A DNA stretch of 64,000 nucleotides, taken from Flavobacterium cheongpyeongense (lineage in GTDB: Bacteria > Bacteroidota > Bacteroidia > Flavobacteriales > Flavobacteriaceae). The number at the start of each line of letters is the position of its first letter. Positions within the stretch are counted from its first letter, which is position 1. The notes beneath the pieces are model-generated. The model had not been told where the DNA came from and did no database searches. It saw only the letters and a program-made list of their open reading frames with translations. Location of the stretch: NCBI RefSeq assembly GCF_003202435.1, contig NZ_QJHK01000002.1, forward strand, positions 248,001 to 312,000. Direction: 5' to 3'. Position numbers and translations under genes: made by a program. Below, one piece after another: positions 7,085 to 37,617 of the stretch.

Positions 7085-7101
7085 CATCCTGTACCTACCT
7101 G
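7085..7101 (-). promoter_or_regulatory. PUL operator-like direct repeat (weaker -7 match)
   Basis: In gene sense this reads CAGGTAGGTACAGGATG, two CAGG half-sites 10 bp apart, matching the repeat seen before other PUL units. At the usual 20-bp distance there is no clear TAnnTTTR box, so this copy may be weaker or may act jointly with the divergent site at 7144. It lies 91 bp upstream of the DUF4450 start. Confidence 0.55.
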
Positions 7102-7143
7102 ATTTTTTACAATACCATAATTTATATTATTTCATTTTTTTAA

Positions 7144-7188
7144 CATCATAGTACAGGATACTATATAAATAAGGAACTCTTAGTTTTG
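7144..7188 (+). promoter_or_regulatory. PUL operator plus promoter for the CE12-GH2-CE12 operon
   Basis: CAGGATA (7154-7160) has a poorly matching partner (CATCATA) 10 bp upstream. It is followed after 20 bp by TAGTTTTG (7181-7188), a Bacteroidetes -7 box. Transcription should start near 7195, giving a leader of about 23 nt to the TTG start at 7218. Similar short leaders occur at the other sites. Confidence 0.7.
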
Positions 7189-7217
7189 ATTTTATAATAA
7201 TTTTAAAAAAGAAAACC

Positions 7218-8558
7218 TTGATAAAATGTAATACTTCCTTCTGTCTAATTTTTTGCTTGGTAATGCAGCTAAATTTGTTTGCATCCCATATTAATTTTTT
7301 AACTGAAATAAGTTCGCTTAATACGACTAAAAATCAATTATTTAATTTCGGAACTTCATCAAAAAAAACAAAAGGAATATTAGTAAACACTTCTTTAGTA
7401 TATGATGCCAAAGGATATGGTTTTGATCTTAATTCTTCATCAAATGTAAAAATAAACACGAATAGCTTTTCTGCCCTTAAACCAACTTACTTTTCTGTAA
7501 AAGTGCCTGAGGGAAATTACCAGATTGAAGTTGTTATGGGAAGCCCAGAAAAAGAGTCCAATATTACCATTAAGGCCGAATCAAGAAGATTGATGCTGGA
7601 TCAGCTTTCGATAAAAAAAGGAAAACCGGTAACCCGTATTTTCAATGTAAATGTAAGAACTCCAAAAATCGATGATAGTCAGAATGTTGCATTAAAGGAC
7701 AGAGAAAAAGATATTTTAAACTGGGACGACAAACTCACACTTGAATTTTTAGGAGACGTTACGATTCAAAGTATAAAAATTACACAAAAAGAGAATCTTA
7801 CAGTGGTTTATTTAGCCGGGGATTCAACTGTAACCGATCAGGACGTGGAGCCTTGGGCTTCTTGGGGACAATTTATAACCAACCATTTTGATAACTCCGT
7901 AGTGGTAGCAAATTATGCGGTTTCGGGTTCGGCTTTAAGCTCGTTCAAAGGAGGAAATCGTTTAAAAAAGATTCTTTCATTAATTAAAAAAGGAGATTAC
8001 CTATTTGTCGAATTTGGCCATAATGACGAAAAAATAAAAGGGGAAGGAAATGGTGCGTGGGGTTCTTACTCTACTTTATTAGCAGAATTTGTTCAGGCTG
8101 CCAGAGATAAAGGAGCAATTGCGGTTTTGGTTACACCTACACAACGCCGTGCTTTTAATGAAAACGGAACTTTAAAAGAAACACATGGCGATTTTCCTGA
8201 TGCGATGCGAACTGTTGCACAAAAAAACAACGTCGCACTTATTGACGTCACCAAAATGACAACCGAATTATACGAAGCCTGGGGCGATGAGCCTTCCAGA
8301 AAAGCTTTTGTACAATATCCTGCCAATACTTTCCCGGGTCAGATAAAAACATTGGAGGATAATACTCATTTTAATAGCTTTGGGGCAAACGAAATCGCAC
8401 TTTGTGTCTTGAAGGGAATTCGCGAATTGGATATTCCGTTAAAAAAACAAATCAAAAAAGAAGTTTCAGATTACAATCCAAAAAAACCAAATTATATTTC
8501 GAACTGGACACTTCCAACGAGTGACCGATTTGAAATTACTAAACCAGATGGCAACTAA
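7218..8558 (+). CDS. Rhamnogalacturonan acetylesterase, CE12-type SGNH hydrolase
   Basis: A protein of 446 residues. The start is a TTG: it yields a proper signal peptide (MIKCNTSFCLIFCLVMQLNL) and a leader length like those of neighbouring units, whereas the next in-frame ATG (7263) would leave too short a signal. Residues about 30-190 form a galactose-binding-like beta domain. The catalytic domain follows with block I AGDST (Ser203), block II NYAVSGSA, block III FGHNDE and block V HFNSFGANE. It removes acetyl groups from galacturonate in rhamnogalacturonan, exposing the backbone to lyases. First gene of a three-gene plus-strand operon. The missing ATG is the only oddity. Confidence 0.85.
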   Translation: MIKCNTSFCLIFCLVMQLNLFASHINFLTEISSLNTTKNQLFNFGTSSKKTKGILVNTSLVYDAKGYGFDLNSSSNVKINTNSFSALKPTYFSVKVPEGNYQIEVVMGSPEKESNITIKAESRRLMLDQLSIKKGKPVTRIFNVNVRTPKIDDSQNVALKDREKDILNWDDKLTLEFLGDVTIQSIKITQKENLTVVYLAGDSTVTDQDVEPWASWGQFITNHFDNSVVVANYAVSGSALSSFKGGNRLKKILSLIKKGDYLFVEFGHNDEKIKGEGNGAWGSYSTLLAEFVQAARDKGAIAVLVTPTQRRAFNENGTLKETHGDFPDAMRTVAQKNNVALIDVTKMTTELYEAWGDEPSRKAFVQYPANTFPGQIKTLEDNTHFNSFGANEIALCVLKGIRELDIPLKKQIKKEVSDYNPKKPNYISNWTLPTSDRFEITKPDGN

Positions 8559-8579
8559 CCATTATAGAAATAACCTCTT

Positions 8580-11435
8580 ATGTTACTAAAAAACACCATT
8601 CAAAACTTTACGATCGCTGCCGTTGCCTTGTTTTCATACCAAAATAGCACAGCACAGCAAACTGATAAAATCTACCTTTCCGGGAAAGATTTTGAACATC
8701 CTGTACAATGGGATTTCTTTTGCACCGGAGGCAATAACAGCCAAAAATGGTCCAAAATTAACGTTCCGTCTCAATGGGAATTAGAAGGTTTTGGAGAATA
8801 TACTTACGGAAGATGGTACAAAGAACTGAATCAAAAAGAACCAAGCAAAGAAGAGGGTTTATACAAATATGAATTTGAAGTTCCTGCCAATTATAAAGAT
8901 AAGGACATCCTGATTGCGTTTGGAGGAGCAATGACGGATACCGAAGTAAAAATCAACGGAAAACTGGCCGGAGCGATTCATCAGGGAGGTTTTTATGAAT
9001 TTAAATATGATATAACATCTCTACTAAAATTCGGTTCTAAAAATACTTTAGAAGTCCATGTCTGGAAACATTCTGCCAATAAATCGGTAAATGCAGCCGA
9101 AAGAAGAGCCGACTGGTGGCTGTTTGGTGGCATTTATCGTCCGGTTTGGTTAGAAGTTTCCCCTAAAACACACATTCAGCATATTGCCATAAATCCAAAA
9201 ATGGACGGTTCAATTACAGTTGATCTGAAACTTAAAAATATATCCAAAAATTCTACTTTGGAAGCTTCCCTGAAAGGTTTAAACGGAGAAAATTTCCAAA
9301 CCTTTACTTTTCCGATAAAAGCAAAAAGTACCAAAGAATCGATAGCAGCACAATGGAAAAACATTAAACCGTGGAATCCGGAAAGTCCGAATTTATATAA
9401 TCTGGAACTGGTGTTAAAACAAAATGGAAACATCATCCATGAATATAAAAAACGAATTGGTTTCAGAACATTGGAATTTAAGAAACAAGACGGAATTTAT
9501 GTAAATGGTACCAAAATCATTATGAAAGGCATCAACCGTCACTCCTTCTGGCCGGAAGGTGGTCGCAGTACCAGCAAGAGAATTAGTGATTTGGATGTGA
9601 AATTATTAAAAGACATGAACATGAATGCTGTTCGCGGACATTATCCTCCTGACGAGCACTTTCTTGACGTTTGTGATTCATTAGGGCTTTTTGTTTTAAA
9701 TGAACTGGCTGGGTGGCAAAACTCTTATGATACCGAAACCGGAACAAAATTAGTGACCGAAATGGTTACCCGGGATGTCAATCACCCATCAGTAATGATT
9801 TGGGATAACGGTAATGAAGGCGGATGGAATTACGATGTTGACAAGGTTTTTGAAGACAACGATCCGCAAAAAAGAATCGTAATTCACCCTTGGGCTGACT
9901 TTAATGGCTGGGATACACATCATTATCCTACTTATTTAACAGGAATGCATCGTTTTAATGCCGGAGAAAATGTATTCTTCCCAACCGAATTCATGCACGG
10001 AACCTATGATAACGGACACGGAGCTGCGCTGGAAGATTTCTGGACACGATACAAACAAAGTCCGCTTTTTGCCGGAGGATTTATGTGGGCGCTGTTAGAC
10101 GAAGCTGTTTTCCGTTCAGACTGGAAAGACAATGCTAAATTTGACTCAAAAGGCTCTTTGGCAGCTGATGGTATTTTAGGACCACACCGTGAAAAAGAAG
10201 GCAGCTATTACACTGTAAAAGAAGTCTGGGCACCAATTCAGTTTCAGCCAAAACAGGTTAATACCGATTTTGATGGTTCTTTCTTAATTACAAACGACTA
10301 TCTTTTTAGTAATCTGAATTCCTGTAAAATGGACTATAAAGTGCTAAAATCTAATAATGATGTTTTATATACAAACGGAACTTCGACAGCAATCAGCTCA
10401 GGTAAAATTGAAATTCCAAACATTGATCCGGGTGAAACACGTAAAATTAAATTCGCAGTTCCGTCTAATTTTGCTGAAGGAGACATTTTATCGATTACGG
10501 CTTATGATCAGTTCAATAAAGAAATTTATACCTGGACCTGGTCCATTCATAAAGCAAAATATTATGCTGCTAAATTTTTAGCGGTTCAGAATACAAAAAC
10601 TAAAGCTTCAGGTGTAAAAGCCGGCAATGAAATTACTTTAAAAGGAAGTGACGTTACAGTTGTTTTAGATGCTGCAACAGGGGAAATTTCTTCAGTTAAA
10701 AACGGAAGAAATACAATTCCGCTAACAAATGGCCCAAGACCAATCGGTATGAAAGCCAAATTAAAAGACATTCAGGTTTCTCAGGAGGGTGATAAAGCAG
10801 TCTGCAACGTAACCTATTCAGGCGGTTTATCCTCGATCAAATGGATTATGGAACCCGATGGAAGGTTTAAAATGGAATTGATTGCCCTGAAAAATACTTC
10901 AGGAGGAGAAGGTTTTGACGGCGCTTTTTTTGAAGATAAAATAAACTCCTGGGGCATTACTTTCAGCTTTCCTGAAAAAGATGTAACCGGAATCAAATGG
11001 TTGGGAAAAGGGCCCTACCACGTTTGGAAAAACAGATTGAAAGGAACTACATACGGTATTTGGGAAAAAGATTACAACACGACCATAACTGGCGAAAGTT
11101 TTGAGAATCTGGTATATCCGGAGTTTAAAGGATATCACGCTAATTTATTGGGGGCAAATTTAAAAGCAGGAGCATCATCTTTTAAAGTTTTCAGCGAATC
11201 TGATAATTTATTTTTGAGATTGTTTACACCGGATTTGCCTAAAAATGGTTTCGCAGGAAGTTACCCTCAGCCAACATTTCCGGAAGGAGATATTTCGTTT
11301 ATGTATGAAATTCCGGCTATGAGAGATTTCAAACCTTTAGAACATCAGGGCCCAGAAAGTCAGGCAACCAATATTCGTATCAAAAACGGTGATGACGGAA
11401 TCAAAATGAATTTATGGTTTGATTTCAGAGCGTAA
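8580..11435 (+). CDS. Glycoside hydrolase family 2 (beta-galactosidase-like)
   Basis: A 951-residue secreted protein (signal ending near STAQQ). The GH2 order is visible: sugar-binding jelly roll (VPSQWELEGFGEYTYGRWY, then ADWWLFGGIYRPVWLE), immunoglobulin-like domain, and TIM barrel with GINRHSFWPEGGR. The acid/base Glu is about residue 413 in WDNGNEGGW; the nucleophile Glu is about residue 470 in FFPTEFMHG. A long C-terminal beta domain follows. In rhamnogalacturonan-I PULs, GH2 enzymes remove beta-galactose or beta-glucuronate/galacturonate; I cannot separate these by eye. It lies 21 bp after the esterase gene, so the two are probably co-transcribed. Confidence 0.85.
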   Translation: MLLKNTIQNFTIAAVALFSYQNSTAQQTDKIYLSGKDFEHPVQWDFFCTGGNNSQKWSKINVPSQWELEGFGEYTYGRWYKELNQKEPSKEEGLYKYEFEVPANYKDKDILIAFGGAMTDTEVKINGKLAGAIHQGGFYEFKYDITSLLKFGSKNTLEVHVWKHSANKSVNAAERRADWWLFGGIYRPVWLEVSPKTHIQHIAINPKMDGSITVDLKLKNISKNSTLEASLKGLNGENFQTFTFPIKAKSTKESIAAQWKNIKPWNPESPNLYNLELVLKQNGNIIHEYKKRIGFRTLEFKKQDGIYVNGTKIIMKGINRHSFWPEGGRSTSKRISDLDVKLLKDMNMNAVRGHYPPDEHFLDVCDSLGLFVLNELAGWQNSYDTETGTKLVTEMVTRDVNHPSVMIWDNGNEGGWNYDVDKVFEDNDPQKRIVIHPWADFNGWDTHHYPTYLTGMHRFNAGENVFFPTEFMHGTYDNGHGAALEDFWTRYKQSPLFAGGFMWALLDEAVFRSDWKDNAKFDSKGSLAADGILGPHREKEGSYYTVKEVWAPIQFQPKQVNTDFDGSFLITNDYLFSNLNSCKMDYKVLKSNNDVLYTNGTSTAISSGKIEIPNIDPGETRKIKFAVPSNFAEGDILSITAYDQFNKEIYTWTWSIHKAKYYAAKFLAVQNTKTKASGVKAGNEITLKGSDVTVVLDAATGEISSVKNGRNTIPLTNGPRPIGMKAKLKDIQVSQEGDKAVCNVTYSGGLSSIKWIMEPDGRFKMELIALKNTSGGEGFDGAFFEDKINSWGITFSFPEKDVTGIKWLGKGPYHVWKNRLKGTTYGIWEKDYNTTITGESFENLVYPEFKGYHANLLGANLKAGASSFKVFSESDNLFLRLFTPDLPKNGFAGSYPQPTFPEGDISFMYEIPAMRDFKPLEHQGPESQATNIRIKNGDDGIKMNLWFDFRA

Positions 11436-11564
11436 AAAAGAGTTTCAGGTTTTCTTTGTTTCAGGTTTTTTATCAACCAACCTTAACACAAAGTATCTCA
11501 TTTCTGAAATGACAAAATTGAGAAAAATTACATTTTACATTTCACACAACACATTTCACACAAT

Positions 11565-13067
11565 ATGAAATCAATTAAAATAATTACAATACTTTTTTTA
11601 GGCTTCTTATTTTTAAATTTTACTCCAAAACAAAACAATAAGCCTACCGTTTACACCGTAGGCGATTCTACTGTAAAAAACGGCAAAGGCGACGGATCCG
11701 GCGGACTTTGGGGCTGGGGCGACTATATCGGGCAGTTTTTAGATTCTACAAAAGTCAATGTCGAAAACCATGCATTGGGCGGAACCAGCAGCAGAACTTT
11801 TCAGGACAAAGGCTTGTGGACAGCGGTTTTGAATAAATTGAAAAAAGGCGACTATGTTCTGATTCAGTTTGGACATAACGACGACGGTCCCTTAAACGAT
11901 ACCCTTCGCGCCAGAGGAACAATCAAGGGAATCGGAAAGGAAATCGAGGAAATCGATAACATGCTTACAAAAAAGCATGAAACGGTGCATACTTATGGCT
12001 GGTACATTCAGAAAGTAGTTCAGGAAGCCAAATCAAAAGGCGCAATTCCGATTATTTGCTCCCCTATTCCACGAAATGACTGGAAAGAAGGAAAAGTACC
12101 ACGCAACAACAAATCATACGGATTATGGGCGAAACAAATTGCAGAAAAAGAGAATGTCACTTTTATCGAATTGAACGATAATATGGCGGTTGAAATGGAA
12201 AAGCTTGGAGAGCAAAAAGTAACCGGAACTTATTTCTACAAAAAAGACCATACTCATCCTTCTGCAAAAGGTGCTGCCCTAGCGGCCTCTATAATTGTCA
12301 ATGAAGTCAAAAAAAGCAAAAATTCATTAAAAAAATACATTCTGCCAAACCCTAAAATTGTATTTCCCGCAAAGAAAAAAGTATACCTGATTGGTGATTC
12401 TACTATGGCAAACAATAATAACGAAAATGCTATTGGCTGGGGAGTTGCTTTTGCTCAATATTGTGACACTACCCGAATTGAAGTAATCAATAAAGCCCGT
12501 GGCGGCAGAAGTACCCGAACATTTGAAAAAGAAGGTTTGTGGGACGCTGTCAAAAATCAGTTGAAACCGGGAGATTTTGTAATGATGCAGTTTGGTCATA
12601 ATGATGCCGGAGCTGTTGATAAAGAAAAATTCAGGGGATCACTAAAAGGAAACGGTGACGAAACGCAGCAAGTCATTCGTGACAGCTTAACCGAAACGGT
12701 TCATACTTTTGGCTGGTACATGCAAAAGTTTATCAGGGAAAGTAAAGAAAAAGGAGCAATTCCGATTGTTTTAAGTCAGACACCAAGAAACGAATGGCCA
12801 AACGATAAAGTAGAAAGAAGAGCGGATACCTATGGAAGCTGGTCCAAAATTGCTGCTGAAAGAGAAAAAGTTTTTTTCATTGATCTGAATGAAATTGTAG
12901 CCCTGAAATACGAAGCTTTAGGCAAAGAAAAAGTAAAACCGTTTTTCCCAAAAGATCATACGCATACAGGTGCAGAAGGAGCCACTTTTAATGCACTTGC
13001 AGTTGCAGAGAGCCTCAAAAAGATAAAAGATTGTGGACTCAGGGAATATATTGAAATTTCGAAGTAA
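11565..13067 (+). CDS. Tandem two-domain CE12-type rhamnogalacturonan acetylesterase
   Basis: A 500-residue secreted protein built of two complete CE12-type SGNH domains in a row. Domain 1 (about 25-260) has VGDSTVKNG (Ser35), FGHNDDG and KDHTHPSAKG. Domain 2 (about 270-498) has IGDSTMANN (Ser279), FGHNDAG and KDHTHTGAEG. Both retain the catalytic Ser, Gly/Asn oxyanion positions and Asp-x-x-His. The domains are clearly related to each other (both share the GWYIQK/GWYMQK region), which indicates an internal duplication or fusion. It follows the GH2 by 129 bp and closes the operon. Two active sites may serve the O-2 and O-3 acetyl positions; this is inference. Confidence 0.85.
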   Translation: MKSIKIITILFLGFLFLNFTPKQNNKPTVYTVGDSTVKNGKGDGSGGLWGWGDYIGQFLDSTKVNVENHALGGTSSRTFQDKGLWTAVLNKLKKGDYVLIQFGHNDDGPLNDTLRARGTIKGIGKEIEEIDNMLTKKHETVHTYGWYIQKVVQEAKSKGAIPIICSPIPRNDWKEGKVPRNNKSYGLWAKQIAEKENVTFIELNDNMAVEMEKLGEQKVTGTYFYKKDHTHPSAKGAALAASIIVNEVKKSKNSLKKYILPNPKIVFPAKKKVYLIGDSTMANNNNENAIGWGVAFAQYCDTTRIEVINKARGGRSTRTFEKEGLWDAVKNQLKPGDFVMMQFGHNDAGAVDKEKFRGSLKGNGDETQQVIRDSLTETVHTFGWYMQKFIRESKEKGAIPIVLSQTPRNEWPNDKVERRADTYGSWSKIAAEREKVFFIDLNEIVALKYEALGKEKVKPFFPKDHTHTGAEGATFNALAVAESLKKIKDCGLREYIEISK

Positions 13068-13137
13068 GTTGTATGGTATCTGTAAAATGTTAGATGTAAA
13101 ATGTAAAATGTTTTATGAAATTTAAGAATATAAATTA

Positions 13138-14477
13138 GGCAGTGTATCACTAAGTGTGTAAGTTAAAAAATGATGGGGTTATTAAACCAGCATCATTTTT
13201 TTTTAACTTTAACATTTACACAGTCTTATGAAAAAAGAAGATTTATTATCAGATGAATTTTTAAAACAATTCAAAACAGGTGAAGACCTAAACGGTTTTC
13301 TTGCCCAATTACAAAAACGAGGAATAGAGGCTATTCTATCAGGAGAGCTGGATTCTCATCTAGGATATGAGAAACACGAAAAGACGCCTTCAACTAATTC
13401 TCGTAATGGTTTTTCCAATAAGAAGATAAAAACTTCATTTGGAGAATCAGACATTCAGGTTCCAAGGGACAGAGAAGCTTCTTTTAATCCCATGATTATT
13501 CCAAAACGTCAAAGTATGGTTGATGGATTAGAGAATGTTATTGTCTCTCTTTATGCCAAAGGAATGACCGTTAGTGATATTGAAGAACAAATAAGAGAAG
13601 TTTATAAATTTGACATATCAACCTCCACTATTTCTAGAATTACCGAATCAGTTTCCAGTGATATAACAGCTTGGCAAAATCGCCCGTTAGAACCTGTTTA
13701 TTTAATCGTTTGGATGGATGGGATTGTCTTTAAAGTTCGGGAGAACTCAAAGGTTATTAATAAAACTGTTTACCTTGCTGTTGGCCTGAATCGAGATGGA
13801 AAAAAAGAAGTTTTGGGTATGTGGTTGGGCAAGAATGAAAGTTCCAGCTTTTGGTTAGGAGTTTTAACAGATTTAAAAGCTAGAGGTGTTGAGGATATAT
13901 TAATTACGGCTACAGATAACCTAAACGGCTTTACTCAGACTATTAAAAATGTATTCCCTGAATCACAGACTCAAATCTGTGTAGTGCACCAAATACGCAA
14001 CTCAGCGCGTTATGTGGTGTGGAAAGATAAGAAGGAATTCTCTAAAGATATGAAGCAGATTTATGATGCTCCAACCAAACAGGCTGCCAGGGCTTCTCTT
14101 GAAGATTTTGCTAATAAATGGAATAGTAAATATCCATATGCTGTAAAATCATGGCAAGACAATTGGGAAGAACTTACCGTATTCTTTGACTTCCCAGTTG
14201 AAATTAGGAAAATAATTTATACCACTAATCTAATCGAAAATCTAAACGGTAAGATTAGAAAATACACCAAAAATAAATTATCATTCCCCACCGATGAAGC
14301 AGTTTTAAAATCTGTATATTTGGCTTTAAGAGAAGCTACCAAAAAATGGACGATGCCAATCCATAATTGGGGATTAATACTCAATCAGTTCTTAACTATA
14401 TTTGAAAAAAGGGTTCAACTTTAATTAAAAAGTCAAACCCCGTTATTTTAAACTTACACACTTTTTAGGACAGTGTC
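13138..14477 (+). mobile_element. IS256-family insertion sequence with target duplication
   Basis: A 1340-bp element. The left end (GGCAGTGTATCACT then AAGTGTGTAAGTT) and the inverted right end (GACACTGTCCTAAA then AAGTGTGTAAGTT) match imperfectly over about 27 bp, including 13 identical bases. It is flanked by the 8-bp direct repeat ATAAATTA at 13130-13137 and 14478-14485, as expected for IS256-family transposition. It carries one intact transposase. The insertion is intergenic, between the tandem esterase gene and the histone-like gene, and breaks no visible gene. The intact duplication suggests a recent or still complete insertion. Confidence 0.92.
13228..14424 (+). CDS. IS256-family (MULE-type) transposase
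   Basis: A protein of 398 residues, the usual length for the family. The DDE catalytic residues are apparent: Asp in [13 protein letters not shown], Asp in [10 protein letters not shown], and Glu in [17 protein letters not shown]. The family's CVVHQIRNS segment lies between the second and third. The N-terminal part ([27 protein letters not shown]) is also typical. No frameshift or truncation is seen, so the element is probably active. It sits 90 bp inside the left end of the element. Confidence 0.95.
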
Positions 14478-14505
14478 ATAAATTAAGTGAACGGGGAATT
14501 TGCAG

Positions 14506-14552
14506 CTTTTCACTTTTCACTTTTCACTTTTCACTTTTCACTTTTCACTTTT
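14506..14552. repeat. Heptanucleotide tandem repeat CTTTTCA
   Basis: About 6.7 perfect copies of the 7-bp unit CTTTTCA lie just outside the right end of the insertion sequence. A looser period-7 tract (TGTAAAA units) lies at 13080-13113 on the other side. Before insertion, both sat in one intergenic stretch. Such heptamer tracts probably arise by slippage and may vary between strains. Confidence 0.8.
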
Positions 14553-14560
14553 AATGCATA

Positions 14561-14593
14561 AAAAAACCTCGTTCAATTTAAACGAGGTTTTTT
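14561..14593. terminator. Rho-independent terminator hairpin
   Basis: AAAAAACCTCGTT (14561-14573) pairs with AACGAGGTTTTTT (14581-14593), with a run of T on either strand. It lies directly downstream of the small histone-like gene on the minus strand and can also stop plus-strand reading from the insertion sequence. Confidence 0.85.
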
Positions 14594-14608
14594 ACTTCTG
14601 TAAGAATA

Positions 14609-14785
14609 TTATTTTTTTGATTCTTCGATAGAAACTTTTCTGAATTCTTTTAAAAGTTTTTCAATTTCTAAAGATGATTTACGTGCTCTTGCTCCTGCTG
14701 CTTTAACACCTTTTTCAGATAATGATTCTGATTCTGTTTTGAATACTTCTAATTCAGCGTTGATTTTTACTAATAGATCTTTCAT
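14609..14785 (-). CDS. Histone H1-like small basic protein
   Basis: A 58-residue protein starting at ATG 14785 (MKDLLVKINAELEVFKTESE ... GVKAAGARARKSSLEIEKL ... FRKVSIEESKK). It is Lys-rich and predicted to be helical. It resembles the short proteins annotated as histone H1 in Flavobacterium, which are thought to bind DNA. It is followed at once by a strong terminator and looks like a single-gene unit. It is unrelated to the PUL around it, which suggests that the PUL or the insertion sequence was placed next to an older gene. The function is inferred from resemblance only. Confidence 0.8.
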   Translation of the reverse strand: MKDLLVKINAELEVFKTESESLSEKGVKAAGARARKSSLEIEKLLKEFRKVSIEESKK

Positions 14786-14984
14786 GCTTATTTATGTTAA
14801 ATTAAGTCGCAAAAATATAAGTTTGCTTTATAGCTAACGTAAGTTTTTTGTTAAAATTATCACAGTTTTTCCTAATTGAGTTACTATTCTTTTTTTAAAG
14901 ACTTTATCACCTAATAAACAGCTTGTTACAAAAAAACAAAAATGATACTTTTTTTAATACGATTCGCCTAAAACGCTCAAAACA

Positions 14985-16352: not shown

Positions 16353-16381
16353 ATTTTATCCTTTTTAAGGTTCAACTCAAC

Positions 16382-21758: not shown

Positions 21759-21803
21759 CAAATATACTTTTTACGACGATCTACACTATCCTGTTCTATA
21801 CTG
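21759..21803 (-). promoter_or_regulatory. PUL operator plus promoter for the GH43-GH28-GH115-sulfatase run
   Basis: In gene sense, CAGTATAGAACAGGATA (21787-21803) is followed after exactly 20 bp by TATATTTG (21759-21766), a perfect TAnnTTTG box. The box ends 29 bp upstream of ATG 21730. The half-sites are 10 bp apart, about one helical turn. Confidence 0.8.
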
Positions 21804-26472: not shown

Positions 26473-26621
26473 TTTTTTTGTTTTAAGTTTAATTTTGACT
26501 GGCTTATCACGCACTTTTTGCCTTTTGTAAAGCGTTTTTGAACAAAAAAGGGAAGACAAAATAGCACTATTTTTGTGAATTTTATGAGGGTAAATTTCAT
26601 AAAAAACAATAAGGATATCCT

Positions 26622-26666
26622 CAAATATATCTACTTATTCTTCTAATAGTATCCTGTGCTATACTG
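26622..26666 (-). promoter_or_regulatory. PUL operator plus promoter for the rhaM operon
   Basis: In gene sense, CAGTATAGCACAGGATA (26650-26666) is followed after exactly 20 bp by TATATTTG (26622-26629). The start codon of rhaM is 150 bp from the box. The leader between about 26615 and 26473 has no clear gene. Confidence 0.8.
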
Positions 26667-26680
26667 TTAAGTTTTAAGCA

Positions 26681-26723
26681 TAAAAAAGAAGGTTTACAAA
26701 AAAACTGTAAACCTTCTTTTTTA
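26681..26723. terminator. Rho-independent terminator after the PL11 gene
   Basis: AAAAAAGAAGGTTTAC pairs with GTAAACCTTCTTTTTT around a short A-rich loop. The hairpin has a T run on each strand. It lies 80 bp past the PL11 stop and just upstream of the rhaM operator, so it insulates the two units. Confidence 0.88.
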
Positions 26724-26804
26724 CAGAAAAATTATCTCAAAAAATAATTCTTGATACATTTTTTGTTCCCTTTGTCTACACTAAAACGCTGATGTTTTAA
26801 ACAA

Positions 26805-30446: not shown

Positions 30447-30474
30447 AAAGGATTGGTTAAAAGGTTAGTACTAT

Positions 30475-30519
30475 TAAAATTATCGTGATAATTCATTAAC
30501 AGTATCCTGCACTACCCTG
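30475..30519 (-). promoter_or_regulatory. PUL operator plus promoter for the large PL11 gene
   Basis: In gene sense, CAGGGTAGTGCAGGATA (30503-30519) is followed after exactly 20 bp by TAATTTTA (30475-30482), a TAnnTTTR box. The box ends 29 bp before ATG 30446, the same distance as at the GH43 gene. Confidence 0.75.
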
Positions 30520-30672
30520 CTAATTCTTTTAAAATTAGAATTCTATAGTCTGTTATCAATACGAATCAAAATCAAGATACTGATAATCAATTAAATAAAT
30601 CTCAACCATTACTATTATTATAAAATAAATTATTAACAAATTGATAAACAGTAATTTTTTCTATAAAATAAA

Positions 30673-30706
30673 TCCCGGTTTATTCTTAGATGAGAATAAA
30701 CCGGGA
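30673..30706 (-). terminator. Terminator after the SASA-type esterase gene
   Basis: TCCCGGTTTATTCT (30673-30686) pairs perfectly with AGAATAAACCGGGA (30693-30706) around a 6-base loop. On the minus strand it is followed by an A/T-rich run with several T. It lies 35 bp past the stop of the gene at 30741. Confidence 0.75.
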
Positions 30707-30740
30707 AACAAGAGATTTAAATATAATATACTCTCTAATT

Positions 30741-32252
30741 TTAGTTAGTTAGGTCTGTGCGAAAAGGAGAAGCCGGTAAATTTTCAACATTAAACAAATT
30801 AGGTTCCGGTACTGCTTTCCATGCAAAACGGACTGATTTAGGATTTTTTACTTTTTCTGAAAAAACTACTATTGTTTTTCCATCAATTTTGGCAACCGCA
30901 GGATAATAAACTTTGTCATCCCCGGCAATTTCAAACTCTTTTAAGTCTCCAGTTGTTTTTTTGAAACCAGAATCAACATAATTAAAAAACAACTGAATTT
31001 TATCTTTTTTGATTTTCAGGTGATCATAAATTGGTCCTGAATATACCAATTTATTTTCGTTGTATGTTCTTGCCAAGGCTATTAATGCTAGTCTGTGTCC
31101 TACGGTTTGTTTGTCAATCGGGTGAATATTATTTACATCACCAACATCAGTTGTAACTGCCATTCCGCTATTTGGTATTGTTTTTAATGATAATAATTGT
31201 GCTTCCCTAATTTCTGGTGTCTGACCTTTATGTGGTGCGATCTGAACATAATAAAAAGGAAAATTACCTTGTTTCCAGTCATCACGCCAGTTTTTTACCA
31301 TAGCCGGAAATAAAGTCTGATACAATTGTGCTTTTCCGGAATTGCTTTCGCCCTGATACCATATTACTCCTTTCATGGTGTAATTTATAAGTGGATGCAG
31401 CATCGCATTATAAAGTACATACGAAGTCTTATTGGCTTCCTTTTTAGGCTTTTTAAGTTCTGTTTTTAAAGCATTATTATTAGCCTGTTTTTCATTTCTT
31501 AAATTGAGATAATAGGTCTCAAGCTTTTCCTGATACAATTTTTCATTTTTAGCATCTTCTTCCAGAATGGTTAAAAAATCTGGATTTTCTTCCAGTACAT
31601 TTTGAGAGGTCCAGGCTTCAGCTTTTGTTCCGCCCCATGAAGTTGAAATTAAACCAATCGGAATTTTTAATTTCTGATACAGCTCTCTTCCGTAAAAATA
31701 GGCTACGGCGGAAAACGTTTTTATCGAATCAGACGAACATGTTGTCCATTTCCCAGTAACATCTTCAAGTTGTTTTGGAGAAGCATTCGTTAAAACCGTA
31801 AACAATCTGATATTAGGATAGTTGGCATTTACAATTTCCTCTTCATAATTTTTAACGCCAGTTTTCCATGTACCTTCTTCTTTTCCAACAGGAAAATACA
31901 TATTTGACTGACCGGAACAAATCCAAACCTCGCCAATGAGAATGTTATTAAGTACAATTTTGTTTGAGGCATTAATCGTTATGGAATATGGTTTTTCGCT
32001 TCCCAGAGGAGTATCAACAGCAACTTTCCAGTCTCCCGCTGCATTTGCAACAACTTCTACTGAACTGTTTTGCCATCCTAACTGAATGTTTATTTTTTCG
32101 TTTGGAGATGCCCATCCCCATAAATTGACTTTTGTATTTTGCTGTAAAACCATATTATCACTTACCAATGCTGGTAGTTTAACTTGTGCTTTTATGGAAA
32201 ATGAAACACTTAAAAAAATTAAAAATGAAAACAGATTTTTGATGTAAGTCAT
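30741..32252 (-). CDS. SASA-type (sialate O-acetylesterase-like) carbohydrate acetylesterase
   Basis: A secreted protein of 503 residues (signal ending near SIKAQ). An N-terminal beta domain (NLWGWASPNEKINIQLGWQN) precedes an SGNH hydrolase with EVWICSGQSNMYFPVG (catalytic Ser), SWGGTKAEAW, GVIWYQGESNSGK, and NIHPIDKQTVGHRLALIALA (Asp/His). Family members remove O-acetyl groups from sialic acid, xylan or pectin fragments; here acetylated rhamnogalacturonan is the natural candidate. It stands alone between the large PL11 and susD and is preceded by two copies of the PUL operator/promoter. The region after the Ser block (about 210-270) is a Lys-rich helical insertion. Confidence 0.82.
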   Translation of the reverse strand: MTYIKNLFSFLIFLSVSFSIKAQVKLPALVSDNMVLQQNTKVNLWGWASPNEKINIQLGWQNSSVEVVANAAGDWKVAVDTPLGSEKPYSITINASNKIVLNNILIGEVWICSGQSNMYFPVGKEEGTWKTGVKNYEEEIVNANYPNIRLFTVLTNASPKQLEDVTGKWTTCSSDSIKTFSAVAYFYGRELYQKLKIPIGLISTSWGGTKAEAWTSQNVLEENPDFLTILEEDAKNEKLYQEKLETYYLNLRNEKQANNNALKTELKKPKKEANKTSYVLYNAMLHPLINYTMKGVIWYQGESNSGKAQLYQTLFPAMVKNWRDDWKQGNFPFYYVQIAPHKGQTPEIREAQLLSLKTIPNSGMAVTTDVGDVNNIHPIDKQTVGHRLALIALARTYNENKLVYSGPIYDHLKIKKDKIQLFFNYVDSGFKKTTGDLKEFEIAGDDKVYYPAVAKIDGKTIVVFSEKVKNPKSVRFAWKAVPEPNLFNVENLPASPFRTDLTN

Positions 32253-32279
32253 AGGGATTGAAATTTAAAACTAGAGTTT

Positions 32280-32324
32280 TAAAGGTAGGCAACCAAAATC
32301 ATTTTTCTATCCTGTGCTTCCCTG
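32280..32324 (-). promoter_or_regulatory. PUL operator plus promoter, proximal copy, for the SASA-type esterase
   Basis: In gene sense, CAGGGAAGCACAGGATA (32308-32324) is followed after exactly 20 bp by TACCTTTA (32280-32287). The box ends 28 bp from ATG 32252. Confidence 0.75.
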
Positions 32325-32446
32325 TTTCTGTTAATATATCAGACAAAAAAAGACAATAACGATGTTACTGCCCTGTAAAATTAAAACCATTTATTTTTTA
32401 TCATTACCATTAAAATCTCAAACTGTTTTTTGAAAAATTTAATGTT

Positions 32447-32491
32447 CAAGTTTATTTATTAGAGTTGTTACAGCAATCCTGTTGCGTGCTA
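32447..32491 (-). promoter_or_regulatory. PUL operator-like site, distal copy
   Basis: In gene sense, CAGGATT (32475-32481) is followed after exactly 20 bp by TAAACTTG (32447-32454), one base off TAnnTTTG. The upstream half-site is degenerate (TAGCACG). It lies between the susD terminator and the proximal promoter, so the esterase gene may have two promoters. Confidence 0.5.
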
Positions 32492-32498
32492 CTTAACA

Positions 32499-32529
32499 TG
32501 AAAAAACCGTCCCAAAAAATGAGACGGTT
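32499..32529 (-). terminator. Terminator after susD
   Basis: In gene sense, AACCGTC (32523-32529) and GACGGTT (32505-32511) form the stem, followed by six T. It lies about 50 bp past the susD stop and ends the susCD transcript. Confidence 0.8.
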
Positions 32530-32581
32530 ATTAAAAAATGAAAAAAATGGTCAAATTGTATTAAAATAAAAACGAGAGATA

Positions 32582-34126
32582 TTAATCGTAGCCAGGGTTT
32601 TGATCATACAATCCTGGAACTGCTAAGATTTCAGATAAAGGAATTGGATATAGCAATGAATTTTTATCGATTGTTCTAATTTTATTACCAGTGTCCTCAG
32701 CTGCTTTCCATGCATTCATGATAGTTATAGCATTTCCTGACCTGATTAAATCAAACCATCTTGTACCCTCAGAAAAGAATTCTTTCCTTCTTTCATCAAA
32801 TAATTGATCCAAAGTGATATTTAAGGCATTTGCTGGCACACCTGCTCTTGTTCTCACCTGATTTACAATTGCATCGACATCAGCCTGAGTACCACCACCT
32901 CCATGAAGTGTACATTCTGCCATCAACATCAATACATCTGTGTAACGAATTACCATAAAGTCTACACCCCAGTCTTCACGTCCACCAGTTCCGTATCTGG
33001 CTGCATCAATGTATTTTTTGAAAACAGGAAGCGTATAACTTCCTTTGTAAGTACCGGATGCCACTGTATAACTTGTTGCAATTCCAATTGTTTTTCTATT
33101 ATCATTAGCTGCAAACATATTTAAGAATCCTGTTGAAATTGGTCTTGGCTCTAAAGATCCTTGTTGTGTATTTATACCTATTGATGCAAAATAAGGTTCA
33201 TAACCAACTTCAACCATGAAATTCCCTCCCACAGAGCCTGTTAAACTTTGTGTATAAGGAATCGTAAGAACATTTTCTTTATTAGTAATTCCTTCTACTT
33301 TAAAAATGGTAGCATAATCAGTCCCAAAAGTATATAAACCACTTGTTTTAACATCGTTTAATTGTTGATATGCTTTATCCCATTCGTTTAGACCAAGCAT
33401 AGCACCATCAATACCGTAAGTCGGACTTGAACGCGTCATGTAAACCAAACCTAGTAAAGCTTTTGCTCCATATTTAGTAACACGACCAACATAAGTTGCA
33501 TCTGTAGTGGAAGCCGGAAGATCTGCAATTGCTGATTGTAAATCTGAAATAACCAGATTATAAATATCTACAACCGGGCTTCTTCCAATTTTTGTAGACT
33601 CCTCAGCTGTCATTGTTTTTTCAATCAGAGGAACTCTTCCAAACCATCTTAATAAATCAAAATAACAAAATGCTCTTAAAAAACGAGCTTCGGCAACCAT
33701 TGTTGCTTTATCTGCCGAATTTGTAAAAATCTGATCTCCTTTTTCAGCAATTTTTTCTAACAACTGATTCGCTTTGTAGATGGCATTAAAATTACTTACA
33801 TAAGCTTCTTTTACATAAGTATTAGCACTAATAGAGGTATAAAAACTATTAATTCCTTCCCAATCTCTCGAAGCCGTCGTCAATGCCAGCAAATTATCTG
33901 ATCTGGTTTCACTTAAATTCAATACTCTATTTGCATAACCATAAGTACCTGTTCCATGAAATGCAACCGAATAAACTGCATTTCTTGCCTGAATAAAATC
34001 TCCGGGTGTAGCATAAAAGTTCTCCTCAGTTCCTTGTGATAAAGGAATTTGCGTCAGTTCATCCGTACAGGAAACTGTTCCCAATAAAAGCAAATTTGCT
34101 GCTAATAAATAAATATATTTTTTCAT
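32582..34126 (-). CDS. susD-like: SusD/RagB family outer-membrane glycan-binding lipoprotein
   Basis: A protein of 514 residues with a lipoprotein signal (lipobox LLLGTVSC, Cys about 20). It has the tetratricopeptide-like SusD pattern: ETRSDNLLALTTASRDWEGI, EARFLRAFCYFDLLRWFGRV, PLIEKTMTAEES, and the C-terminal DERRKEFFSEGTRWFDLIRS with YPIPLSEILAVPGLYDQNPG. It caps the SusC transporter at the cell surface and binds the incoming oligosaccharide. It follows susC by a single base, so translation is probably coupled. Length is usual. Confidence 0.95.
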   Translation of the reverse strand: MKKYIYLLAANLLLLGTVSCTDELTQIPLSQGTEENFYATPGDFIQARNAVYSVAFHGTGTYGYANRVLNLSETRSDNLLALTTASRDWEGINSFYTSISANTYVKEAYVSNFNAIYKANQLLEKIAEKGDQIFTNSADKATMVAEARFLRAFCYFDLLRWFGRVPLIEKTMTAEESTKIGRSPVVDIYNLVISDLQSAIADLPASTTDATYVGRVTKYGAKALLGLVYMTRSSPTYGIDGAMLGLNEWDKAYQQLNDVKTSGLYTFGTDYATIFKVEGITNKENVLTIPYTQSLTGSVGGNFMVEVGYEPYFASIGINTQQGSLEPRPISTGFLNMFAANDNRKTIGIATSYTVASGTYKGSYTLPVFKKYIDAARYGTGGREDWGVDFMVIRYTDVLMLMAECTLHGGGGTQADVDAIVNQVRTRAGVPANALNITLDQLFDERRKEFFSEGTRWFDLIRSGNAITIMNAWKAAEDTGNKIRTIDKNSLLYPIPLSEILAVPGLYDQNPGYD

Positions 34127-34127
34127 T

Positions 34128-37100
34128 TTAATTAAAATTAACGTTAAGACCTAAAACGATTGATTTTGCCAAAGGTGCACCTCCATAATCTACAGGAACT
34201 GCAAAATCATTATTTGAACTTCCAGAGGTATTTACCGCTTCAGGATTAAAGCCTCCCTTGTATTTATTCCAATAGAACCAGTTTTCACCTGTTATATAAA
34301 GCCTCATATTATCTATTCTTTTTAAGCTTTTAACAGCATCTTTTAAATTATATCCAAGTGAAATACTTCTTATACTAACATAATCTGACTTATACATCCA
34401 ATCAGAATTCGGCTGAAAACCAAAAGAAGTTTTCCAGTTACCTCTTACAGCCGGATCAACATTTAATGCATTTTCTACTGACCCCATTCCGGTACGATTA
34501 ATTGCTCTTCCTGTTAACCCGTAAACTGTTCCACCGTTTTGACCTTGTACCAATACACTTAAATCTAATTTTTTGTATTTAAAAGTATTTGTTACACCCC
34601 AGGTATATTTTGGAGTTGGATTTCCTAAATCAACGCGATCTTCTGTATTAATTTTTTTATCACCATTCTGATCAATATATCTTGGATCTCCTAAAACTAA
34701 TTTGTTTCCGCCTATAGTAGTACCACCACCATCAATATCAGCCTGAGTTACTACACCATTTTGCTGCAAACCAAAAATGGTGTACATTGGTTTTCCTATT
34801 TCTAATTTTACAAATGGAACCCCTGCTCCAAACTCACTGCTAATTTCAATTTTAGTCTGATCCGGTCCTAATGCCAATACCTTATTTTCGTTATGACTTA
34901 AATTTGCAGATGTTTTCCATTCAAAATTATTAGTTTTAACGTTCACCGTATTCAATTCAAATTCCCATCCTTGATTTTGCACCGCCCCTACATTGGTAAG
35001 ATAACTTGTAAAACCTGATGCCGCAGGAACCGGAAGCCTAAGCAATAATTCTGTATTCTTTTTTCTGTACATATCGAATGTTGCTGAAATTCTGTTTTTT
35101 AGGATTGAAAAATCCAATCCTAAATCAATACTTTTTGATTGCTCCCAATGCAATGATGGATTTCCTATAGAACTTACTCCTTGCCCTATTCCTACAGCAC
35201 CATTAATTGAATAATTATAAGACCCTAATATTGAAAAAGGTGAATAACTACCTATATTGTTACTACCATTAGTTCCTGTGCTTGCTCTTATTTTTAATTC
35301 GCTCAACCAATCAACATTTTCTAAAAATGATTCCTGCTTAACTCTCCATCCTAATGATAGAGAATAAAATGTCCCCCATCTTTTCTCACTTCCAAACTTA
35401 GACGAACCGTCTTTTCTTACACTTGCAGAAAGCATATATTTTTCTTTATAATCATATTGAAATCTACTGAAATAAGATAATAAAGTGTTTTTTTCTGCAT
35501 TAGTAGACCCCAAAGAACCTGTTGGAAGTGTTTCTATCGTTGAACTATTATAAAGTCCTCCGGAAGAAAGATTTGATCGCGTAATTTTATAAGAACTAAA
35601 TGACTGACCCAAAAGAACATTAAAACTATGGTTGCCTACTGATTTATTATAAGTTAAAGTATTTTCATTTACAAAATTTAATCTTCTATAGGTATTATAA
35701 GCTCCCCTTATACTAGCCAGAACATCATTGGGTGTATAACTCTCGAATGTATTATCTGAATTATCAAAGTTAATTGTACTTTTAAATGTAAAAGCCTTTG
35801 CAAATTTATAATCAGCATAAGTAGAAACAATATTTCTATACATAGAGTTTTTTCCAGTTCTGGCCAATGCATTAAGCATATTCGTTGTACTGCTTCCCCA
35901 CGCATATCGGGTTGTATATTTTTCACCTGCTGCATTTGGGGCACTTTCAAAAACAGGAGTTGCTACTAATGCTTTGAATAATGTATTATCTTTTCCTTCA
36001 ACACCCGGGTCATTTCTTTCTGAATAAGACGGAGAAAAATTAATTCCTATTTTAAAACTATCTGATAATTTAAAGTCAATATTAGCTCTTGCAGAAAACA
36101 AGGTATAATCAGTACCAACAATATAACCTGTGTTTTTTTGATAATTAGCAGAAACATAATAGTTAACTACATCAGTTGCCCCAGAAGCAGATAATTGATA
36201 ATTACTGAACTCTCCTGTGCGGAAAACTTTGTCCTGCCAATCAATATAATCCAATCCCGGATGTCCTGGCATATCCCATCTTTCATCATATAAATATGTA
36301 AAATATCTATTATTAGTTGTAACAAGCGGTGCTGATGGATTTACTGCATTATAGGCTGCAATACGCTCAGCATTGGTTTGACTCGCTGAAGCACCGGCAA
36401 TACCCGAACCTACCCATTGCGAATCAATCATGGTTTTTGCTCTTTTAATCCAACCCTCAGCAGATAACATATCCACTCTGTTCGCTTCTTTATTTATACC
36501 TCCATACGTATTAAAAGTATATTTCGTTTTTCCTTTTGTACCTTTTTTGGTTGTAATTAAAACAACACCATTTGCTGCTCGTGAACCATAAATAGAAGCT
36601 GCAGCCGCATCTTTCAATACCTCAATAGAAGCGATATCATTTGGATTCATATTGTCTAAAGGGCTTCCGCTTGAAAAACCGCCATTAACATTTGTTCCTT
36701 CTGTAGAAATAGGAAAACCATCAACCACATACAAAGGTTCGTTTCCCGCAGTAATAGAACCTGCTCCACGAATTTCTATACTAAATGGCTGCCCAGGCAA
36801 ACCAGTAGTTTGTTTTACACGAACACCTGCAATTTGACCAACCAACCCCTGATCAACTCTTGAAATAGGTCGTTCTGTAAAATTTTCTGTTTTAATACCA
36901 GACATGGCACCCGAAGTTAATTTTTTCTTTTGAGTTCCATAACCAATAACTACAACTTCATTTAAGTTCGAGCTTTCATTTTCTAAAGAAATATTATAAT
37001 TATTAGAGGCACCCACTTTTAATTCTTTCGAAACAAACCCAACGAAAGAAAAAACTAAAGTTTCTCCTGGAGAAACAGATATTTTATATGTTCCATCAAA

Positions 37101-37271
37101 GTCTGTACTGGTTCCTCTATTGGTTCCCTTTACCAATACATTCACTCCTGGAATAGAGAGTTTTGCCGGGTCAGTAACTGCACCCGTAATCTCTCTGTTC
37201 TGCGCATACCCTGATACATGCAATAATGCAGACAGAGTTATCATCAACAGAAAACTAAATTTGTTCTTCAT
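34128..37271 (-). CDS. susC-like: SusC/RagA family TonB-dependent oligosaccharide transporter
   Basis: A 1047-residue outer-membrane protein. After the signal peptide (ending GYAQN) comes the carboxypeptidase-like regulatory domain (REITGAVTDPAKLSIPGVNV), the TonB box/plug (NEVVVIGYGTQKKKLTSGAM, LYVVDGFPI, IEVLKDAAAASIYGSRAANG), and a large 22-strand barrel. It imports oligosaccharides across the outer membrane using TonB energy, with the adjacent SusD lid. No N-terminal anti-sigma-interacting (STN) domain is visible, so control is probably not by an ECF sigma/anti-sigma pair. The triple repeat upstream supports control by the shared PUL regulator. Confidence 0.95.
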   Translation of the reverse strand: MKNKFSFLLMITLSALLHVSGYAQNREITGAVTDPAKLSIPGVNVLVKGTNRGTSTDFDGTYKISVSPGETLVFSFVGFVSKELKVGASNNYNISLENESSNLNEVVVIGYGTQKKKLTSGAMSGIKTENFTERPISRVDQGLVGQIAGVRVKQTTGLPGQPFSIEIRGAGSITAGNEPLYVVDGFPISTEGTNVNGGFSSGSPLDNMNPNDIASIEVLKDAAAASIYGSRAANGVVLITTKKGTKGKTKYTFNTYGGINKEANRVDMLSAEGWIKRAKTMIDSQWVGSGIAGASASQTNAERIAAYNAVNPSAPLVTTNNRYFTYLYDERWDMPGHPGLDYIDWQDKVFRTGEFSNYQLSASGATDVVNYYVSANYQKNTGYIVGTDYTLFSARANIDFKLSDSFKIGINFSPSYSERNDPGVEGKDNTLFKALVATPVFESAPNAAGEKYTTRYAWGSSTTNMLNALARTGKNSMYRNIVSTYADYKFAKAFTFKSTINFDNSDNTFESYTPNDVLASIRGAYNTYRRLNFVNENTLTYNKSVGNHSFNVLLGQSFSSYKITRSNLSSGGLYNSSTIETLPTGSLGSTNAEKNTLLSYFSRFQYDYKEKYMLSASVRKDGSSKFGSEKRWGTFYSLSLGWRVKQESFLENVDWLSELKIRASTGTNGSNNIGSYSPFSILGSYNYSINGAVGIGQGVSSIGNPSLHWEQSKSIDLGLDFSILKNRISATFDMYRKKNTELLLRLPVPAASGFTSYLTNVGAVQNQGWEFELNTVNVKTNNFEWKTSANLSHNENKVLALGPDQTKIEISSEFGAGVPFVKLEIGKPMYTIFGLQQNGVVTQADIDGGGTTIGGNKLVLGDPRYIDQNGDKKINTEDRVDLGNPTPKYTWGVTNTFKYKKLDLSVLVQGQNGGTVYGLTGRAINRTGMGSVENALNVDPAVRGNWKTSFGFQPNSDWMYKSDYVSIRSISLGYNLKDAVKSLKRIDNMRLYITGENWFYWNKYKGGFNPEAVNTSGSSNNDFAVPVDYGGAPLAKSIVLGLNVNFN

Positions 37272-37303
37272 AAAAAATTAATTTTGGTTATTATTAGTTT
37301 TGC

Positions 37304-37348
37304 CAAATTTATCTATAAGACTTCCCTGCAGCATCCTGCAGCATCCTG
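37304..37348 (-). promoter_or_regulatory. PUL operator (three tandem half-sites) plus promoter for susCD
   Basis: In gene sense, three half-sites lie exactly 10 bp apart: CAGGATG (37342-37348), CAGGATG (37332-37338) and CAGGGAA (37322-37328). The -7 box TAAATTTG (37304-37311) is exactly 20 bp from the middle half-site, which matches the spacing elsewhere if the first two form the standard pair. The third, weaker half-site would overlap the space to the -7 box. Confidence 0.78.
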
Positions 37349-37572
37349 TTAACATTCAATACCTTATAAATAATTTTTAATTCTTATTTAGCGAAACAAC
37401 AGACAACTTATTGATTAGCAACGTCAAACACAACACATTTTTCACAATATAAAATTCAAAACTTTAACTAAATTATTTTTTAAGCATTCATACTTTTTTG
37501 GAGTAAAAACTGTGAAATATAAAAAAACACACCTTATTATCTATTTACTAATTTATTATTAATAATTAACTA
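37349..37572. other. Divergent spacer between the susC and GH106 promoters
   Basis: About 220 bp of AT-rich sequence between two oppositely directed operator/promoter units. I see no gene, no strong hairpin and no further CAGGAT half-site. The two units point away from each other. Confidence 0.6.
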
Positions 37573-37617
37573 CAGGATGCAACAGGATAGCAATTTGACA
37601 AAAACTTTATATTTTTA
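37573..37617 (+). promoter_or_regulatory. PUL operator plus promoter for the GH106-GH105-esterase/GH43 operon
   Basis: CAGGATGCAACAGGATA (37573-37589) is followed after exactly 20 bp by TATTTTTA (37610-37617), a TAnnTTTR box. The start codon at 37700 is 83 bp further on, a longer leader than at most other units. Confidence 0.77.

Follow-up and report, generated by a model that had tools for sequence, protein, structure and literature searches.

What regulator reads the 10-bp direct repeat that stands, at one fixed distance from the -7 box, before operon after operon of a polysaccharide utilization locus (PUL) in Flavobacterium cheongpyeongense, and does it activate or repress them? The PUL lies in a stretch of 64,000 nucleotides (contig NZ_QJHK01000002.1, positions 248,001 to 312,000; this whole stretch is hereafter the window, numbered from its first letter), and its gene content by Pfam includes PL11, GH106, PF07470 (GH88/105-type), GH28 and rhaM. 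Through comparison of genomes we established the motif, its geometry, its target genes, its presence at the rhaT promoter, its inheritance together with one regulator gene, and the domain architecture of the encoded protein, here called RhaR-G. The answer that we consider likely, given these sequence comparisons, is that the repeats are operators of RhaR-G, which would be a cytoplasmic, L-rhamnose-responsive activator of hybrid GntR-LacI type; direct binding, effector and activation are all predictions.

Within the window, the pattern CAGN7CAGGATR-N20-TANNTTTR occurs at seven places when up to two mismatches are allowed, of which six are exact (21759, 26622, 30475, 32280, 37304 and 37573) and one has a single mismatch (7144, where CAT replaces the first CAG); in 100 dinucleotide shuffles, by contrast, 0.19 places were found on average and never more than 2. 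This agrees with an earlier reading of the same letters (the original prediction), which had claimed seven sites with a box after exactly 20 bp. All seven are in gene sense, the end of the box lying 19–82 bp from the start of a listed open reading frame (ORF), and the downstream genes encode, by Pfam, a GDSL (CE12-type) esterase, GH43, RhaM, PL11, a SASA esterase, SusC and GH106. On the plus strand, the candidate operator CATCATAgtaCAGGATA (7144..7160), kept as CATCATAGTACAGGATA in several relatives, is followed after 20 bp by the -7 box TAGTTTTG (7181..7188); the site does precede an esterase operon, whereas CE12 was the original prediction's own label and Pfam gives GDSL. On the minus strand are the candidate operators of the GH43 operon (21787..21803; -7 box TATATTTG, 21759..21766), the rhaM (L-rhamnose mutarotase) operon (26650..26666; -7 box TATATTTG, 26622..26629), the PL11 rhamnogalacturonan lyase gene (30503..30519; -7 box TAATTTTA, 30475..30482), the SASA-type esterase gene (32308..32324; -7 box TACCTTTA, 32280..32287) and susC-susD (37332..37348; -7 box TAAATTTG, 37304..37311), the last with two half-sites and a third, CAGGGAA, 10 bp further. 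The plus strand again carries the candidate operator of the operon for GH106, PF07470 (GH88/105-type) and an esterase (37573..37589), with its -7 box TATTTTTA at 37610..37617.

Two weaker sequences came from inspection of half-sites, both on the minus strand and both as previously described. A second, degenerate operator copy (CAGGATT, 32475..32491) lies upstream of the SASA-type esterase gene, and its box TAAACTTG (32447-32454), one mismatch from the pattern, begins after 20 bp; its apparent counterparts in relatives have one mismatch and a perfect box (G185:C79:376591 and G066:C29:606982, where G, C and L are our handles for genomes, contigs and loci). The repeat-like CAGGTAGgtaCAGGATG (7085..7101) has no box and is doubtful. 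Reading the 7144 site as a palindrome was also considered, as ATAGTA-N5-TACTAT looks palindromic, but the logo of the sites is that of a direct repeat only.

The unit extends well beyond this PUL. Scanning the whole genome (5.22 Mb) gives 15 places at no more than one mismatch, seven in the window and eight outside it, and none for the reversed pattern. One of the eight, on contig 11, falls within an ORF and is probably a chance match. Elsewhere the unit lies upstream of genes for a GH78-type rhamnosidase, SusC and a BNR-repeat protein on contig 37 (with a related site at a GH141/rhaM fusion), a PL4 rhamnogalacturonate lyase on contig 24, a secreted 925-aa protein on contig 88, and a fasciclin/SusC/SusD operon with an NrtR-type regulator on contig 86. 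When two mismatches are allowed, it is also found upstream of the rhamnose catabolic operon on contig 25, whose identity follows from RhaT (PF06379) in the orthologous G092 locus and from RhaEW, which scores above its NCBIfam cut-off; the isomerase encoded there matches L-rhamnose isomerase models with scores below their cut-offs. The description of the unit as PUL-wide is too narrow, given that it is found at several loci of the genome and, as set out below, in many genera.

Many of the targets are connected with rhamnose polymers, namely PL11, PL4, GH106, GH78-type, rhaM and rhaT. G025 has 11 listed sites on one strand within about 110 kb of one contig (G025:C37:90000-226900, L141-L147), in a cluster of rhamnosidases (PF17389, PF17132), sulfatases and a rhaM gene that also contains a second copy of RhaR-G (60% identical); we read this cluster as an ulvan-like PUL, its substrate being predicted from the genes. 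Many sites and a second regulator copy likewise occur together on contig C29 of G066.

The bare repeat, CAGGAYRN3CAGGAYR, was searched in 22 chosen Flavobacterium genomes, all regulator-bearing, and was found at 130 places, against 10 for the reversed pattern. Eighty of the 130 regions, chosen by genome and list order irrespective of the box, were analysed together with seven of the nine places in the F. cheongpyeongense genome, giving 87; of the two left out, one lay beyond the loci used and the other, C87:169858, has no box (four mismatches). By a simple open-frame test, 76 of the 87 repeats are intergenic, and in 72 of these TANNTTTR stands exactly 20 bp downstream at no more than one mismatch (56 exact), whereas at the other 79 offsets the box occurs at a mean of 3.1 of the 87 sites and a maximum of 9. 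Two of the four intergenic misses (L244 and L290, as opposed to L273 and L293) carry a third half-site and conform once the register is shifted by 10 bp; they were counted as misses because the scan took the first register. Among the 11 repeats within long open frames, the eight without a box are probably chance matches, and the three with one (L285, L287 and L298) may be real sites misjudged by the crude frame test.

A logo built from the 51 non-redundant members of these 72 sites reads RCAGGAYRSN twice and then T-A-N-N-T-T-T-G/A, which corrects the repeat unit of the original prediction to these 10 bp. Several of these positions lay outside the search pattern: R before the first CAG (46/51), S after the two half-sites (51/51 and 45/51) and R at the joint (51/51); the final G of the box is replaced by A in 18 of the 51. 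Likeness to a half-site appears only at offsets 0 and 10 among the offsets from -22 to 30, and neither a general third half-site nor a copy at +21 was borne out, although L244, L290 and 37332 do have three half-sites. Primary-sigma promoters of Flavobacterium have a TTG-type -33 element. Such an element is absent from the counted sites, where its position is taken by the second half-site. In F. psychrophilum the TAnnTTTG box is the primary-sigma box and occupies -12 to -5 (PMC9723704; papers given by PMC number are cited here and below from the parts of their text available to us), and by this placement the repeat spans -49 to -33, its second half-site CAGGAYR lying at -39 to -33 in the counted sites owing to how these were selected. 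The constant spacing and orientation, with the repeat where an activator would contact RNA polymerase, thus uphold the view of a single operator/promoter unit.

Which protein, then, would bind it? The original prediction favoured an AraC-type regulator or a hybrid two-component system (HTCS), and several points speak for it: AraC-type domains can read direct repeats, RhaR of B. thetaiotaomicron is itself of AraC type, and rhamnogalacturonan PULs in that organism use HTCSs (PMC3878776, PMC3870299). The operators of such regulators, however, have a periodicity of about 21 bp (PMC3878776, PMC3870299) in place of the offsets 0 and 10 alone that are found here, and although the genome holds 33 AraC-type domains (PF12833), none lies within about 17 kb of a site, this being a test of proximity, as individual AraC genes were not profiled for co-inheritance. 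We therefore regard an AraC-type or HTCS regulator as very improbable, and the regulator linked to the motif is instead the GntR-LacI hybrid RhaR-G.

The gene for RhaR-G (G000:C25:229829-230869) lies 17.1 kb left of the window and is divergent from rhaT, RhaEW and the isomerase gene, with a site in between. The surroundings of sites in five relatives include a GntR-type gene beside or near a site in G025, G092, G180 and G051 and none in the single G031 contig, and four of these genes gave PF00392 above its cut-off. In RhaR-G, an N-terminal GntR winged helix (PF00392, 46.8 bits, cut-off 27) is joined to a C-terminal sugar domain of LacI/periplasmic-binding type (PF13377, Peripla_BP_3, 30.3 bits, cut-off 26.5); PF13377 was not reported for the G092 orthologue. 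By sequence, the solved structures related to RhaR-G are GntR DNA-binding domains, that of AraR among them (4egy, over residues 10-78, E 2e-6), and in a predicted model of RhaR-G built from 16 close sequences (predicted local distance difference test, pLDDT, 76.9; predicted template modelling score, pTM, 0.61), residues 85-346 match LacI-type sugar domains, including that of B. subtilis AraR (3tb6; Z 18.7, root-mean-square deviation 3.3, 245 aligned). A family search finds four GntR domains in the genome: RhaR-G, a 475-aa frame on contig 1, a protein encoded beside galK-galT-galE and one in a xylB/xylA operon. The helix that may hold the recognition code reads SRDTVEKAYN in the rhamnose-type protein, SRDTVLQAYD in the galactose-type and SRDTVFKAYT in the xylose-type one.

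At the divergent rhaT promoter, the repeat (at most two mismatches) and the box at 20 bp are present in 76 of 80 named loci, mostly of close species and hence not 80 independent events, while the reversed control has four to six mismatches in all 80. The four exceptions are L393 and L397 (Hyunsoonleella) and L399 and L402 (Flaviramulus), with L397 and L402 carrying sites at other positions of the locus. At least six genera (G228, G242, G340, G360, G366 and G369) also have a listed site no more than 300 bp upstream of the gene for the regulator. As to the neighbourhood, a gene for a sigma factor of extracytoplasmic function (ECF) type follows the regulator gene (L027:2422-3021), and further genes beside it look like an anti-sigma/SusCD set (L027:2422-9038), where the profile search covered the sigma gene.

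Motif and regulator are inherited together. Of 199 Flavobacterium genomes, 83 have the motif and 40 the regulator (E<1e-120); the 40 average 8.0 motif hits, 37 of them having at least four, whereas the 159 without the regulator average 0.44 and only three (G180, G191 and G111) reach four (Fisher p 4e-33). For the reversed pattern, the 40 give one hit and the 159 give 22. Twelve regulator-less genomes of at least 4.5 Mb show 0–3 hits, and the two other regulator-less genomes named here beside G180 are G191, with five hits, all five as listed lacking the CAGGA of the first half-site, and G111, with four. In a wider survey of 249 Flavobacteriaceae genomes from 235 genera (regulator at E<=1e-80, motif at no more than one mismatch), the motif occurs in 51 genomes and 49 genera and the regulator in 58 genomes: both are present in 49 genomes, the regulator only in 9, the motif only in 2 (one hit each) and neither in 189 (p 5e-40). 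At E<=1e-120 and with the own genus excluded, the corresponding counts are 45, 7, 4 and 191, and none of the 195 genomes that lack the regulator at this cut-off has three or more motif hits. With the reversed pattern found nowhere in the own genome and once in the 249, and with the repeats intergenic (76/87) and boxed (72/76) as described, the pattern is not equally common at unrelated genes.

Co-inheritance also bears on another candidate, P0001, a NUDIX/winged-helix regulator of NrtR type on contig 86 (L019:9910-10593, G000:C86:157909-158592), which could be the regulator in the manner of the NrtR/AraR proteins. Its own promoter carries the unit (C86:157816), its gene ends a SusCD operon with an exact site, and more distant NrtR relatives (at most 47% identity) are common, in 90 of the 199 genomes at E<=1e-8. 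Close orthologues (77-80% identity), on the other hand, occur in only three of the 198 other genomes (G185, G066 and G060), against 83 of 199 for the motif; G025, with its 12 motif hits, matches NrtR only weakly (E 3e-17); and BtAraR binds 21-bp semipalindromes (PMC4666351), unlike the direct repeat here. Membership in the Bacteroides NrtR/AraR regulon was accordingly rejected, the operator being a direct repeat and a close orthologue being confined to 4 of the 199 genomes including this one, and it is hardly credible that P0001 is the regulator; more likely it is a target.

A paralogue speaks to the function of the spacing. The galactose-type GntR protein encoded beside galK-galT-galE is 37% identical to RhaR-G, and the divergent gal promoter reads CTGGTAGGTACTGGTAT, 20 bp, TAATTTTG (G000:C8:50839-50883; L194:12840-12884). 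In 20 promoters of other Flavobacterium, hand-picked for spread and typed by their regulator gene (the operon being annotated in this genome only), a 10-bp CTGGTA repeat is present at no more than 2/12 mismatches in all 20 (10 perfect), with the box exactly 20 bp away in 19 (18 perfect), while reversed and other-strand controls have 3–5 mismatches each. In the wider family the CTGGTA operator at no more than one mismatch is found in only 4 of 249 genomes, two of which are Flavobacterium. As the spacing is the same for two different half-sites, it belongs to the regulator type and not to one sequence. By the 20-bp rule, both operator sequences have the arrangement of a class II activator promoter, at a fixed distance and in place of the -35/-33 element, and nothing points more strongly to contact with RNA polymerase, and hence to activation, than this spacing shared across paralogues.

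Two alternatives meet this evidence directly. First, the same GntR-LacI protein on the same operator may act as a repressor, blocking RNA polymerase until rhamnose relieves the block, like B. subtilis AraR with arabinose: the operator abuts the -33 region, and the named relatives of this architecture are repressors (4egy, "arabinose metabolism transcriptional repressor"; 3tb6, "arabinose repressor AraR"). A repressor, however, needs neither a single orientation nor an exact spacing, and yet 72 of the 76 intergenic sites keep 20 bp, as does the galactose-type paralogue with its different half-site; moreover, since a half-site occupies the -33 position, the basal -33 element is absent, which also counts against repression. 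On balance, repression appears unlikely. Second, the two elements could be the -35/-10 pair of an alternative (ECF) sigma factor, fixed spacing being a hallmark of sigma factors and an ECF-type sigma gene adjoining that of the regulator. To this we give almost no weight, considering that TAnnTTTG, the downstream element, is the box of the primary sigma factor (PMC9723704) and is common to two upstream repeats (CAGGAYR and CTGGTA), and that, for a -35 element, a direct repeat of 17 bp would be long.

Several observations weigh against RhaR-G as a rhamnose-responsive activator acting through this motif. First, the correspondence is imperfect: 9 of the 58 regulator-bearing family genomes show no motif at one mismatch or fewer, and 3 of the 40 regulator-bearing Flavobacterium have fewer than four hits (G057 0, G074 1, G049 3), though G057 does carry the rhaT site, missed in the count because of its mismatches. 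Nor does the motif belong to RhaR-G exclusively, since G180 has four hits and lacks the regulator; among its inspected sites, one has a different GntR gene as its neighbour and another lies no more than 4 kb from a GntR fragment. A further 68 Flavobacterium genomes have weaker regulator matches alone (108/199 at E<=1e-25), which were taken as paralogues, and co-inheritance alone cannot separate a regulator from other rhamnose genes inherited alongside it. Second, some targets have no obvious link to rhamnose, namely the fasciclin/SusCD operon on contig 86 and the genes that accompany some of the sites in G051 and G180. One motif-bearing SusCD promoter of G051 adjoins a GntR gene followed by xylB/xylA-like genes, and hence xylose-type paralogues may share the half-site; the contig-86 operon may be controlled by such a paralogue or by the NrtR-type protein. 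Third, a LacI-type dimer has two-fold symmetry and could occupy a direct repeat only if its DNA-binding domains were flexible.

Apart from these points, G180 and G051 have sites (for example CAGGACAGTACAGGTTAGTTAATT) that are followed after 20 bp by a sequence resembling the box and precede genes with no obvious rhamnose link (L154:7414-10143, L157:8139-15979). Two further genes of the window are recorded for completeness: one for a Mutator-family transposase within the PUL (13228-14424), between the esterase operon and a sulfatase gene, and one for a 522-aa SIR2_2-domain protein (58301-59869) that is possibly defence-related.

If RhaR-G is indeed such an activator, the following sequence of events can be envisaged. 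Extracellular and periplasmic enzymes would attack rhamnogalacturonan (in relatives, an ulvan-like sulfated rhamnan) and set rhamnose free, and rhamnose or an early catabolite would bind the LacI-like domain; L-rhamnose is presumably the effector, judging by gene context. With the effector bound, two winged-helix domains would occupy the 10-bp repeats at -49 to -33 in head-to-tail arrangement, replacing the -33 element, and recruit RNA polymerase with the primary sigma factor to the TAnnTTTR box, such that one regulator would couple rhamnose catabolism to the PULs that supply rhamnose. More broadly, we lean somewhat towards the idea that the GntR-LacI regulators of Flavobacteriaceae form a family of class II activators with one grammar, in which a 10-bp tandem half-site set by the paralogue (CAGGAYR for rhamnose, CTGGTA for galactose and perhaps CAGGAY variants for xylose) always precedes the -7 box by 20 bp, and through which monosaccharide catabolism and polysaccharide programmes would be wired to one cytoplasmic sugar sensor in about 50 genera.

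PUL switching is less known in flavobacteria, which are major degraders of plant and algal polysaccharides, than in Bacteroides. Were the proposal correct, programmes for rhamnogalacturonans I and II and for ulvan-like rhamnan would depend on one cytoplasmic sensor, not on PUL-specific membrane sensors. It offers a readable promoter code and a regulon predictable from sequence, and would help to assign orphan PULs to rhamnose polymers, explain why unlinked loci are induced together, and provide Flavobacterium with candidate promoters inducible by rhamnose or galactose. For the GntR-LacI family, known mostly as repressors on palindromes, members that activate from tandem repeats at a fixed position would be unusual.

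How does this arrangement compare with known systems? Our literature search, which left most subscription journals and the regulon databases outside its reach, found neither this operator nor a rhamnose regulator of GntR type described; in the portion available, PMC3870299 contains neither "GntR" nor "flavobacter", and a GntR regulator of the RhaR-G kind was not found in the available text of papers on pectin in G. flava (PMC5306329), carrageenan (PMC5698469) and xylan (PMC12125979). Within the Bacteroidetes, the primary-sigma promoter shares the TAnnTTTG box and its position (PMC9723704), while here the second half-site replaces the -33 element. As is proposed for RhaR-G, the HTCS and SusR-like regulators of Bacteroides control PULs, including rhamnogalacturonan PULs, via direct-repeat operators; their repeats, however, average 21 bp between sites (HTCS) or lie 67-77 bp apart (SusR) (PMC3878776), as against 10 bp here, with a soluble candidate regulator encoded beside monosaccharide catabolism and one operator for several loci. 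RhaR-G has in common with B. subtilis AraR the two-domain architecture of PF00392 and PF13377 and the position of a local sugar regulator. The operators of B. subtilis AraR are palindromic, whereas that linked to RhaR-G, its predicted binding site, has two direct 10-bp units, keeps a constant distance to the -7 box downstream of it and serves a large regulon; AraR is a repressor (PMC4666351), in contrast to the activation proposed here. A parallel in geometry comes from the DeoR-type rhamnose regulons, whose operators consist of two direct repeats at 10-11 bp (PMC3870299), which makes the 10-bp arrangement plausible for a rhamnose regulator, even though RhaR-G belongs to a protein family different from those named in that paper for regulators of rhamnose genes, LacI, DeoR and AraC (PMC3870299).

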